Origin: Enterobacteriaceae endosymbiont of Plateumaris rustica
GTDB taxonomy: Bacteria > Pseudomonadota > Gammaproteobacteria > Enterobacterales > Enterobacteriaceae
NCBI RefSeq assembly: GCF_012562965.1
Contig: NZ_CP046228.1
Coordinates: 250,325 to 314,324, forward strand
DNA: 64,000 bases
Reading direction: 5' to 3'
Shown: one piece after another, positions 18,533-31,404 of the stretch
How the letters are laid out: each line of letters begins with the position of its first letter
Numbering within the stretch: position 1 is the stretch's first letter
The notes under the pieces: model-generated
Seen by the model: only the letters and a program-made list of their open reading frames with translations
Told to the model about the DNA's origin: nothing
Database searches by the model: none
Position numbers and translations under genes: made by a program

Positions 18533-20368
18533 TTAATCATCTAAAAAACTTTTAAGTATTTCTGAACGACTTGGATGACGTAATTTTCTTAATGCTTTAG
18601 CTTCTATTTGACGTATTCTTTCTCTAGTTACATCAAATTGTTTTCCTACTTCTTCTAACGTATGATCAGTATTCATATCTATACCAAATCTCATTCTTAA
18701 TACTTTAGCTTCTCTAGGAGTTAAACTAGATAAAATATTATATGTAGCTAAACGTAAATTTTCTGAAGTAGCTGATTCTAATGGTAACTCTAATGTGTTA
18801 TCTTCAATAAAATCACCTAAATGTGAATCTTCATCATCTCCTATAGGAGTTTCCATTGATATAGGTTCTTTTGCTATTTTCAATACTTTTCTAATTTTAT
18901 CTTCTGGTATCATCATTTTATCTGATAATTCTTCAGGAGTAGGTTCTCTACCAATTTCTTGTAGTATTTGTCTGGAAATACGATTTAATTTATTAATAGT
19001 TTCTATCATATGCACTGGAATTCTTATAGTTCTAGCTTGATCAGCAATGGATCTCGTTATAGCTTGTCTTATCCACCAAGTAGCATAAGTAGAAAATTTA
19101 TAACCTCTTCTATATTCAAATTTATCTACTGCTTTCATTAAACCAATATTACCTTCTTGAATTAAATCAAGAAACTGTAACCCTCTATTAGTATATTTTT
19201 TTGCAATAGAAATAACTAATCTTAAATTAGCTTCAACCATTTCTTTCTTAGCACGTTTAGCTTTAGTCTCTCCTATTAATATTTTTTTATTAATATTTTT
19301 TATTTGATTAATAGTGAGTTCTGTTTCTTTTTCAATTTTTACTAGTTGTATAAAACTATTTTCTATTTTTTGATATAAATCATTTAATTCTAAAAATGAT
19401 AAATTTTTATTTATTTGTAATATTTTTAATTGATTAATAAAATTATTTTTATTAATTTTACTAGAAGTAAATAATAAAATAATTTTTTTTTTAGATATTT
19501 TAAATTTTTCAATACATAATTTCATAATATAACGTTCTTGTATACGAATACGTAACATTATAGAACGCATATTATTAACTAAATAATCAAATTCTTTAGA
19601 TACTAAACGAAATTGTTTAAATATTTCTGCAAGATTTTTAATTTCATTTATAGAATCATTATGATTTCTACCTTTTTCTTTTATTATAAAAGATGTAATA
19701 TGGTATTGATTTCTTAATTCTGAAAATTTTTCTTTAGCTAATTTAGGATCTATAATATTTTCATTATCATCTGATTCATCTTCTTCAGATAATTTTGTTT
19801 TAACATTAATAATTTTATTTAGTATAATTTCTTCATTAATATTTATATTAATAAAACCATTGATTAAATCAGATAAACGAATATTTCCTAACTCTACTTG
19901 ATCATATTTCTTTAATAGATAGATAATAGCTTTTGGATATTCAGCAAAAGTACACTGTATTTGATTAATACCTTCTTCTATTCTTTTAGCTATGTTAATT
20001 TCACCTTTTCTTGTTAATAATTCTACAGTTCCCATCTCTCTCATATACATACGTACTGGATCTGTAGTTCTACCTATTTCCGAATCTATTTTAGTTGATA
20101 ATACTTGTACAACTGCTTCTTCTACAATTTCATTGTTTTCATTATTATTTCGATTTAATATTAAATCATCTTCATCAGGAGCTTCTTCCATTACTTGTAT
20201 TCCCATATCATTGATCATTTGAATAATATCTTGAATTTGATCGGAACCAACAATATCATCCGGAAGATGATCATTAACTTCTGAATAAGTTAAATATCCT
20301 TGTTCTTTACCACGTATAACAAGAAGTTTAAACTGTAATTGTGAGTTATGCTCCATAAAAAATTCCAT
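18533..20368 (-). CDS. rpoD: RNA polymerase primary sigma factor RpoD (sigma 70)
   Basis: Housekeeping sigma factor, 611 aa (E. coli 613). Region 1.1 (residues 1 to about 95), region 1.2 with [11 protein letters not shown], the non-conserved acidic insert (about 190-380), and regions 2 to 4 are all in order. Region 2.3/2.4 has [10 protein letters not shown] with flanking residues, and region 4.2 has the helix-turn-helix [18 protein letters not shown]. The C-terminus SFLDD matches E. coli exactly. It is the last gene of the rpsU-dnaG-rpoD macromolecular synthesis operon, 122 nt after dnaG. An ATG four codons in (MEHNSQ) is closer to the E. coli start and is an alternative. Confidence 0.98.
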
Positions 20369-20490: not shown

Positions 20491-22253
20491 TTAAAAAATT
20501 TTTTTAATTTTAGCTAAATCTTTATTTAAAGACCATAATTCTTTTTTTTTTTTAAGATTTAAACCTTCTTTTCTTTCCAAAAAAATTAAATATTCTTGTC
20601 TTTCTTCTATAATATTCATTTTTAATTTATTTATTAAATGAATAAAAAAATTTTCTATCTTCTCATTTGGAACGATATGGTTCCATATTGCTAATGTTTC
20701 AAGAGGTTTTTTAAATTTTGTTCCTCTATATTTTTCTAATATTTGTGCTGTTGTTATTTTTTTTTTATTACAAATTTGAATTAATTCAATAAAAAAATTT
20801 AATCCATTAAGATTAGATGTTTTAAATAATTTTAATTTTGGTATAAACTTTATTAATTTAGGTTTTTGTATTAATAAACTAATTAACATTCTTATTGTTG
20901 TCTTTTTAAAATTATTTAAGTAATTATTATTTGATAATTGTTTTATATTTTTTTTTTGAATCATTAACTGATATATTTGAAAAAAATTTAAAATACCTAT
21001 TTTTTCTCCTATTTTTTTTATTAAATTAATTTGAAAAATATAATCAGGAATATCATGAATTAAAGATAAAGCTTTATTAATAAATTTAGTTTTTTCTTCA
21101 CAATTTTTAAGACTATTTTTTTCTATTAAACTTTTAAAAAAAAAATCTGAAAATGATAAACTATTATTAATGTATTTTTCAAATAAAACTTTTCCTCCTT
21201 TTTTTATCAAACTATCAGGATCTTCTCCATCAGGAAGTAATAAAAAATTTATTTGTTTACCTTGTACCATATGAGATAAACTAATTTTTAATGAATACCA
21301 ATTAGCTCTTCGTCCAGCATTATCACCATCATAACAATAAATAATTTTATTAGTTATTTGAAATAATTTTTTTATATGTTCATTTGTAATTGATATTCCT
21401 AAAATTGCTACTACATATTTTATATTAAATTGAAATAAACTAATAACATCAGTATATCCTTCTACAACTAAAATTTTTTCTAATAAATTAAATTTTTTTT
21501 TTATTTCATATAAACCATATAATTCATTTCTTTTGTGAAAAAAAATATTATCAGGTGAATTTAAATATTTAGGTTCTCTATTATCTAAAGAACGACCACC
21601 AAAACCAATAATTTGACCTTGTATATTTTTAATTGGAAATATTATACGATTATGAAAAATATCATAATAATTATTTGTATTTTTATTATGAACTAACATT
21701 TTTAAATCTTCAATTAAATAATTTTTTTTTTTTTATTATTACATATTAAATAAATCAAATTTTTATTGGAAAAACCAATAGTAAAATAATCTATTATTTC
21801 TTTATTAAATCCACGATTCAATAAATATTGATAAGCTTTTTTTCCTAAATAAGAATTTATTAAAGAGTCTTTGTATAATTTACTAATATCAAATATTAAA
21901 TCATTTATACATTTTTTTTTATCTATATCAGAAATATAATCTTTACTATTATTTTTATAAGGTATTATAAATCCAAAAAAATTTGCTATGTGTTTAATAC
22001 TTTCAATAAAACTAAGATTATCATAATGCATTATAAAATCAATTATATTACCATGAATACCACAACCAAAACAATGATATAATTGTTTTTCTTCACTAAC
22101 AACAAATGAAGGATGTTTTTCTAAATGAAAGGGACAAAATCCAAAAAAATTTTTACCTCTTTTTTTTAATTTTATTCTATTTTGTATTAATAATAAAATA
22201 TTACTTTTATGAAGTAAATTACTTACATATGTACGGGGAATATATGTTCTCAT
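20491..22253 (-). CDS. dnaG: DNA primase DnaG, interrupted by a poly-A frameshift
   Basis: DnaG makes the RNA primers for replication. The first frame (22253-21714) encodes the zinc-binding domain (Cys40, His43, Cys61, Cys64 in CPFH and HCFGCG) and the start of the polymerase core. It runs into a stop just after a 13-nt A tract (minus strand; plus-strand T at 21722-21734). The second frame (21699-20491) begins at MLVHN and carries the rest of the core, with the TOPRIM VVEGYTDV and CYDGDNAGR motifs, and the DnaB-interacting C-terminus. Adding one A joins the frames through NYLIEDLKMLV, which aligns with E. coli QSLIDAGMLV, giving about 587 aa (E. coli 581). An essential gene, so it is probably rescued by slippage on the A tract; a sequencing error is the alternative. 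Confidence 0.92.
21722..21734 (-). other. A13 homopolymer at the dnaG frameshift
   Basis: Thirteen consecutive T on the plus strand (A13 in the dnaG message). It was the longest homopolymer I noticed in the window; other in-frame genes carry runs up to about 11. The frame changes exactly here. Confidence 0.9.
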
Positions 22254-22320: not shown

Positions 22321-22536
22321 TTAATATAAACGAATTTTTTTTAAATTTTCTCTTATTATTTTTTTTGTATGTCTTTTAATTGCTGATGCTTTAGCTCTTT
22401 TTCTTTTTGTTGTAGGTTTTTCATAAAATTCTCTACGTCTAACTTCTGATAAAATACCTGCTTTTTCACAAGAACGCTTAAATCTTCTTAAAACTAAATC
22501 AAATGGTTCATTTTCACGTACTTTAATTACTGGCAT
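22321..22536 (-). CDS. rpsU: 30S ribosomal protein bS21
   Basis: S21, 71 aa, the same length as in E. coli, with the diagnostic [13 protein letters not shown] start, the [11 protein letters not shown] segment and a very basic C-terminal half. First gene of the rpsU-dnaG-rpoD operon, divergent from tsaD as in E. coli. An AGAG Shine-Dalgarno lies upstream of the ATG. Confidence 0.97.
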
Positions 22537-30780: not shown

Positions 30781-30951
30781 TTTTAGTTGCTAATCTTATA
30801 TTTTAATTATATTATGTTTTTTGTAAAATTAATATGTAGGAAAATAGATTATTTAAAATAAATAAATTAATAAAATAAGTTAAATTATATTAAATATTAA
30901 AAATAACTATATTTTAATAAATTATTAAAATAAAATTAAGTTGAGTTGAAT

Positions 30952-31404
30952 ATGAAAAAAAAAAATAAAATTTTATCTTCTTTAAATATTTTATCTATTG
31001 CAGGAGTTACTCCTTATAAAATAAAATTAAAAGAAGAATATATGAATAAAAAACAATTATTACATTTTAAAACAATATTACAATCTTGGCGTAAACAGTT
31101 AATAAATGAAGGTAATAGTGATATTTCTTATATGCAAAATAAATCATCAAAATTTCCTGATCCAATAGATAGAGCAGTACAAGAAGAAGAATTTAGTTTT
31201 GAATTAAGAAATAGAGATAGAGAAAGAAAATTAATAAAAAAAATTGAAATGACTTTAATAAAAATTAAACAAAATAATTTTGGATATTGTCAATCTTGCG
31301 GAATAGAAATTGGTATAAAAAGATTAGAAGCTCGTCCTACTGCAGATTTATGTATTGATTGTAAAACACTAGCTGAAATTCGTGAAAAACAAATAGCAGG
31401 ATAG
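30952..31404 (+). CDS. dksA: RNA polymerase-binding transcription factor DksA
   Basis: DksA acts with ppGpp through the polymerase secondary channel on rRNA and other promoters. 150 aa from the ATG at 30952 (E. coli 151); a TTG two codons upstream (30946) is possible but less likely. The coiled-coil tip motif FPDPIDRA is intact, as is the four-cysteine zinc finger (CQSCG and CIDC) and the C-terminal [20 protein letters not shown] stretch, nearly identical to E. coli. It is isolated between two gene-free stretches, followed by a good terminator and ending in TAG. Confidence 0.96.

Follow-up and report, generated by a model that had tools for sequence, protein, structure and literature searches.

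A shared frameshift at a poly(A) tract in the primase gene of Plateumaris symbionts and its probable rescue by slippage

How does the Enterobacteriaceae endosymbiont of Plateumaris rustica make its primase if the gene, dnaG, is divided between two reading frames? The locus lies in a window of 64,000 nucleotides, the whole stretch of DNA analysed here, from a chromosome of 498,937 bases. Thirteen T residues at positions 21722–21734 of the plus strand form an A13 tract in the coding strand. A preliminary description placed the two halves of the gene in adjacent frames with the switch on this tract, and the sequence, the open reading frames and the Pfam matches all confirm that arrangement. The features of the locus are as follows.

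21714..22253, minus strand: 5' part of dnaG in the zero frame, from ATG to TAA, 179 aa in the list of open reading frames; covers the zinc-binding domain and the first portion of the catalytic core, which the 3' part continues
21722..21734, minus strand: A13 tract read from the sequence, the presumed slippery site
21717..21732, minus strand: 16-nt region open in both frames, the sole site at which a -1 shift connects the two, from frame analysis
21714..21716, minus strand: zero-frame stop, TAA in four Plateumaris symbiont genomes and TGA in that of P. braccata
20491..21732, minus strand: 3' part of dnaG in the -1 frame, 413 codons plus stop, from frames, Pfam, PDB and motifs
21697..21699, minus strand: ATG in the downstream frame, the start codon if the gene were split; unconserved, being ATA in the symbionts of P. 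consimilis and P. braccata
22321..22536, minus strand: upstream neighbour, rpsU, identified by reading the sequence
18533..20368, minus strand: downstream neighbour, rpoD, identified by reading the sequence

The names rpsU and rpoD are presumed for these neighbours from the gene order rpsU-dnaG-rpoD. Counted from its own ATG, the 3' part of dnaG encodes 402 aa (21699–20491); from stop to stop it spans 413 codons.

All features of the DnaG class were found across the two parts: zinc ribbon, DNAG_N, Toprim and DnaB-binding domains, and the catalytic motifs. The N part matches the Pfam family Zn_ribbon_DnaG (1.9e-33) and the beginning of DNAG_N (2.6e-5, slightly below the cut-off), and the C part matches the remainder of DNAG_N (6.3e-25) together with the Toprim and DnaB-binding domains. 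PDB matches divide in the same way, 1d0q (primase zinc-binding domain) to the N part and 1dd9 (primase) to the C part, with the alignment to 1dd9 beginning at the LV after the E. coli string QSLIDAGMLV, which the preliminary description compared with the junction. The TOPRIM motifs VVEGYTD, which holds the catalytic glutamate, and YDGDNAG are present in the 3' part. A profile search found no second PF08275 match elsewhere in the genome.

The 16-nt overlap is flanked upstream by a stop in the -1 frame and downstream by the zero-frame stop, so that a shift is possible only on the tract or in the two codons after it. The halves are joined by a -1 shift; a single additional RNA base, as in the earlier proposal of one added A, would have the same effect. 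In the -1 reading, a residue count from FTIGFS to YYDIF gives 39 residues across the junction, the same as in the intact relative G012.

Distribution of the break and reliability of the sequence

Twenty-four genomes of the genus were compared, comprising five Plateumaris symbionts (G000 to G004, from P. rustica, P. sericea, P. pusilla, P. consimilis and P. braccata respectively) and 19 others. A dnaG match was found in every one. The break is identical in place and phase in all five Plateumaris symbionts, each with a downstream frame of 413 codons, and all 19 non-Plateumaris genomes have an open dnaG frame of 580–629 codons (that of G014 includes a stretch of N away from the break site). The tract is A13 in four Plateumaris symbionts and A11-G-A in that of P. 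pusilla, equal in length with one substitution, and in each of the five the region open in both frames measures 16 nt. Their C parts have diverged from that of the window by 14–18% of residues, yet segment length and phase are the same in all of them. Since Plateumaris is the sister group of the remaining reed beetles, according to passages of the reed-beetle genome paper (PMC7289800), the simplest history is a single fixation of the break that preceded the separation of the five lineages.

Compared with the Donacia-type symbiont G008 over about 64–68 kb, in which 62–65 of 69 genes were matched per genome, dnaG was the only split gene; conversely, none of the 65 matched window genes (of 68) was split in the G008 stretch. 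No relative was found in the genome-contig collection, and the plasmid collection contained no dnaG copies except ones below 60% identity. Two adjacent genes of G008 (G008:C1, about 259672–261374) by eye encode an ABC-2 type permease and its ATPase; the pair is matched in G001 and G002, is matched only in fragments in G000, and was not found in G003 or G004.

A homopolymer miscall or assembly error, with the real tract in frame, was the main alternative named in the preliminary description. Long A runs are prone to error, and one Plateumaris symbiont has a second gene broken at an A13. Passages of the genome paper state that the reed-beetle symbiont genomes other than that of Macroplea mutica were sequenced with Illumina NextSeq (PMC7289800). 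Five separately sequenced species nevertheless agree in phase, and in one of these the run is interrupted; five dnaG copies wrong in one direction are not credible. The five whole genomes contain 28 distinct A/T runs of at least 13 nt, four of which are the dnaG tract. Among the remaining 24, 21 are in frame inside long open frames, which indicates that long runs are generally read correctly; the three exceptions are a break in truB (G004), a run in G002 that lies where fabD begins, its start codon being ambiguous, and a non-coding plasmid run. This agreement and the in-frame runs strongly disfavour a miscall, which we rate as very unlikely, and the dnaG frameshift is confirmed as real. The truB gene of the P. 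braccata symbiont, named by reading the sequence, is broken by -1 at its A13 (G004:C1:344089-344101) and is one open frame in each of G000 to G003.

Constraint on both halves of dnaG

Substitution rates were estimated by NG86 for all 10 pairs of Plateumaris symbionts with the tract codons excluded. Every pair shows purifying selection on each half, with dN/dS of 0.10–0.48 in the N half and 0.23–0.48 in the C half. By rate the N half belongs with the fast-evolving genes (rank 56 of 57 for divergence within the clade, 50 of 57 for its ratio to the outgroup), and the C half is ordinary in rate (ranks 40 and 33 of 57). The C frame is open over exactly 413 codons in all five genomes. Neutral simulations of the window's C half at 5–12% divergence (2000 per setting) gave means of 6.0–13.3 stops, with 0–0.35% of copies free of stops. 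The zinc, VVEGYTD, YDGD.AG and PDGEDPDS motifs are retained in 5/5.

A decaying pseudogene, with primase supplied from another source, might be expected in a reduced genome that is still losing genes. Both dN/dS ranges, however, are far below 1, and the lack of stops, the constant length of the C frame and the conserved motifs across the clade point the other way, as does a genome with no other DnaG match. We give this reading almost no weight. A stable split gene, the halves being translated separately and cooperating as two polypeptides, fares somewhat better and is still improbable. The zinc-binding and catalytic domains of primases are separable, and an ATG follows the junction in three of the five genomes (G000, G001 and G002), with a TTG in G004. 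The break, however, falls inside the DNAG_N domain and not at a domain boundary, G003 and G004 lack the ATG, and the A tract has been retained although a split gene would have no need of it. We found no conserved start codon for a second part near the junction among the five Plateumaris genomes. In G003 none of ATG, GTG and TTG occurs in the C frame until codon 154, by which point the VVEGYTD motif (about codon 90) has been passed, so that a separately started second half would there lack the catalytic glutamate unless a rarer start codon were used. Purifying selection, a C frame open in 5/5 and the absence of a conserved start thus argue against both readings.

Retention of the tract was also viewed against other A runs in the homologous 64–68 kb of the five genomes. 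Counting every run that reaches 10 in any of them yields 51 entries, duplicates included, and in 40 of these the run is shorter than 9 in one species or more. In length summed over the five genomes the dnaG run comes first (63; 13, 13, 11, 13 and 13), and its minimum of 11 is the highest, a value it shares. One run in G004, an A14 in a gene we take to be uppS, exceeds any individual dnaG copy, and an A11 run at window position 30955, near the start of the open frame 30940–31401, is exactly 11 in all five genomes with no split gene there. Given these two runs, tract retention alone proves nothing. Intergenic A tracts were considered as a neutral clock for tract length and dropped as too few; the first set held eight cases, some probably inside genes absent from the gene list. 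Non-coding pair-counts gave nine uninterrupted cases, three of them changed by a non-multiple of three, and coding-labelled pair-counts gave 19 of 413 so changed, with a crude ORF mask and pairs that are not independent. One-base changes in A runs do occur, and we draw nothing more from these counts.

Probable slippage on A runs in dnaG and fabD

Slippage on the A run, by polymerase or ribosome, very probably restores full-length primase. This explanation, already preferred in the preliminary description, remains the best supported in view of the five-species break, the constrained halves and the disfavoured alternatives. Three features of the slippage-rescue class are present at the locus: a break in an A/T run of at least about 9 nt, an otherwise intact gene constrained on both sides, and retention in 5/5 species.

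We hypothesize that the frameshift originated on the A tract, that it predates the diversification of the Plateumaris symbionts, and that they tolerate it because slippage there supplies a fraction of full-length DnaG. RNA polymerase would be the main agent, slipping backward and adding one A, and we lean toward this route with some reserve. The mRNA pool would then be mixed: messages with one extra A would be read through to full length, and the others would yield a fragment of 178–179 aa. The same protein would come from the ribosome slipping by -1 on A_AAA_AAA (A_AAA_AAG in G002), which may add to the polymerase route or replace it. Because the same protein is predicted either way, the two kinds of slippage are indistinguishable from sequence.

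The direction of polymerase slippage known from a related setting fits dnaG, which needs one extra base. Passages of a Buchnera study place 151 of 157 transcription insertions inside homopolymers, versus 16 of 57 deletions, and describe polymerase slippage in A/T runs as mostly single-base insertion (PMC5574713). The runs in that study reached 11 nt, and its passages report no case of a restored frame (PMC5574713). In earlier symbiont cases, corrected transcripts made up 12–50%, as given in part of a review (PMC5009743).

Mainly ribosomal -1 frameshifting on in-phase heptamers, of the dnaX type, is a variant of slippage rescue that we consider possible and distinctly less likely than the polymerase route. 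Such heptamers are present in all five Plateumaris copies (A_AAA_AAA in four, A_AAA_AAG in G002), and the sole tRNA-Lys among the 30 of 32 tRNA loci inspected is UUU. A -1 shift, the one direction that ribosomal slippage of this type can take, is required by each of the 11 broken dnaG copies examined and by each of the 19 broken fabD copies described below, and fabD of G020 retains only A9-G followed immediately by UAG. The search for stimulators speaks against this variant. There is no downstream RNA structure at dnaG (z from -1.60 to +0.50, five copies) or at fabD (z from -1.86 to +1.47, 19 copies, 40 approximate shuffles each), and no Shine-Dalgarno-like element was obvious by eye upstream of the dnaG tract in the five copies. 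A bare A run is explained by polymerase slippage alone.

Broken dnaG copies also occur outside the genus. Among 98 small genomes hand-picked from the family sample, 80 were searched; 79 had a dnaG match and five were frame-split (G072, G075, G204, G282 and G404), with several further rows of this survey showing a single stop. As a control, proS showed no clear frame split among the matches listed, and we claim no rate. In G072 the split is -1 at an A12 immediately before the TOPRIM domain. In another small-genome genus dnaG is split ahead of the DnaB-binding domain in five of six genomes, always by -1, and the main A runs at those five splits measure 11–22 nt and differ among genomes. The 11 broken copies come from only about three lineages, so that the shared direction is not statistically strong, and A runs prone to deletion in DNA would produce an equal excess of -1. 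A change of another kind was seen in dnaG of G138, an in-frame TGA (bases 1993–1995 on the reverse strand of the extracted locus) where many reed-beetle symbiont copies have tryptophan, which would represent either a nonsense change or UGA read-through.

A second site was found in fabD, which is split at one A run in all 19 non-Plateumaris genomes (for example G008:C1:78335-79284) and open, with 321–327 codons, in each of the five Plateumaris genomes. Seven of the 19 have A13 at the break, ten have A10, G009 has A10-C-A-A and G020 has A9-G. Between genomes the tract changes in steps of three nucleotides or by base substitution, and every one of the 19 copies requires a -1 shift. The frames overlap by 43–49 nt (five genomes), wider than in dnaG, so that the shift, likely on the A run, could also lie elsewhere in the overlap. 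In 20-kb stretches from 15 non-Plateumaris genomes, with 9–12 of 16 genes matched, fabD was the only split gene. An alignment of 13 of the 19 split copies with two intact ones shows two catalytic motifs in all 15 rows, G-[HY]-S-L-G-E ahead of the break and P-x-H-C beyond it. A regular expression for the FabD active site had matched 3 of 19 and its histidine motif 0 of 19; judged by the alignment the pattern is too narrow, and it was rejected. In ten chosen pairs dN/dS was 0.13–0.41 for the N half and 0.20–0.75 for the C half, the upper value implying weaker constraint than in the C half of dnaG. In 16 of 19 copies the fabD C frame contains no ATG, GTG or TTG among its first 28 codons. The fabD site is an independent parallel that supports slippage rescue. 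The intact Plateumaris gene has a peculiarity of its own: four of five genomes have no in-frame ATG, GTG or TTG before the FPGQG motif, and an A run lies right at the start.

If slippage rescue is correct, an essential replication enzyme has persisted across an entire group of related species although its gene is out of frame, and dnaG and the fabD of the sister branch would be two fixed, reciprocal recoding sites in one genus with syntenic genomes. The fabD tract stays at about 10–13 nt, with substitutions, and is never off -1 though one base would restore the frame. From this one may go further and suppose that selection keeps the -1 phase, with A-run recoding a fixed expression step for essential genes of the genus; we think this unlikely. 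If true, dnaG would be recoded in one deep branch (5/5) and fabD in the other (19/19), and the short product or a lowered dose of full protein would matter to the cell.

The fabD site is carried by G021, the symbiont of Macroplea mutica, whose genome was sequenced with PacBio plus Illumina according to passages of the genome paper (PMC7289800). Symbiont RNA-seq is public for three Donacia species and for Macroplea, M. mutica included (PRJEB73718), so whether transcripts carry an extra base can be asked of existing data. The terms frameshift, slippage, dnaG and fabD are absent from the main texts of the reed-beetle genome paper (PMC7289800) and of the symbiont expression paper, and the word Plateumaris is absent from the main text of the latter. 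Automatic annotation may label slippage-dependent genes as pseudogenes.

Comparison with known systems

Slippage at an A run has been shown experimentally for tssM of Citrobacter rodentium, where, according to passages of the report, polymerase adds adenosines at an A11 with about 20–25% efficiency (PMC4256274). The likeness to dnaG lies in the A run and, in those passages, in short plus full-length products; tssM, however, is a secretion-system gene of a cultivable bacterium, whereas dnaG is an essential gene of a reduced symbiont.

In dnaX of E. coli, programmed -1 frameshifting makes a shorter product. Heptamers of its A_AAA_AAG type occur in dnaG of G002 and fabD of G020, but no stimulatory structure was found at dnaG or fabD, and the shift in dnaG gives the longer product, unlike that in E. 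coli dnaX.

Closer in setting are Buchnera and Blochmannia, in which poly(A) frameshifts are reportedly rescued by transcriptional slippage, as described by Tamas in 2008 and Wernegreen in 2010. These cases resemble the present one in the AT-rich insect symbiont, the break at a single A run, the otherwise intact gene and the occurrence across species. The Plateumaris case differs in that it concerns an essential replication gene and extends to all five species of a clade.

The nearest precedent concerns the same gene. Passages of the report on Blochmannia vafer describe a homopolymer frameshift in dnaG for which the authors proposed slippage, present in one of three species and, in their view, possibly recent (PMC3017870). 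As far as those passages go, gene and kind of break are shared with Plateumaris, but the Plateumaris break is common to five species. The kind of event is thus already known, even for dnaG, and the Plateumaris gene adds to it an unusual depth of conservation.
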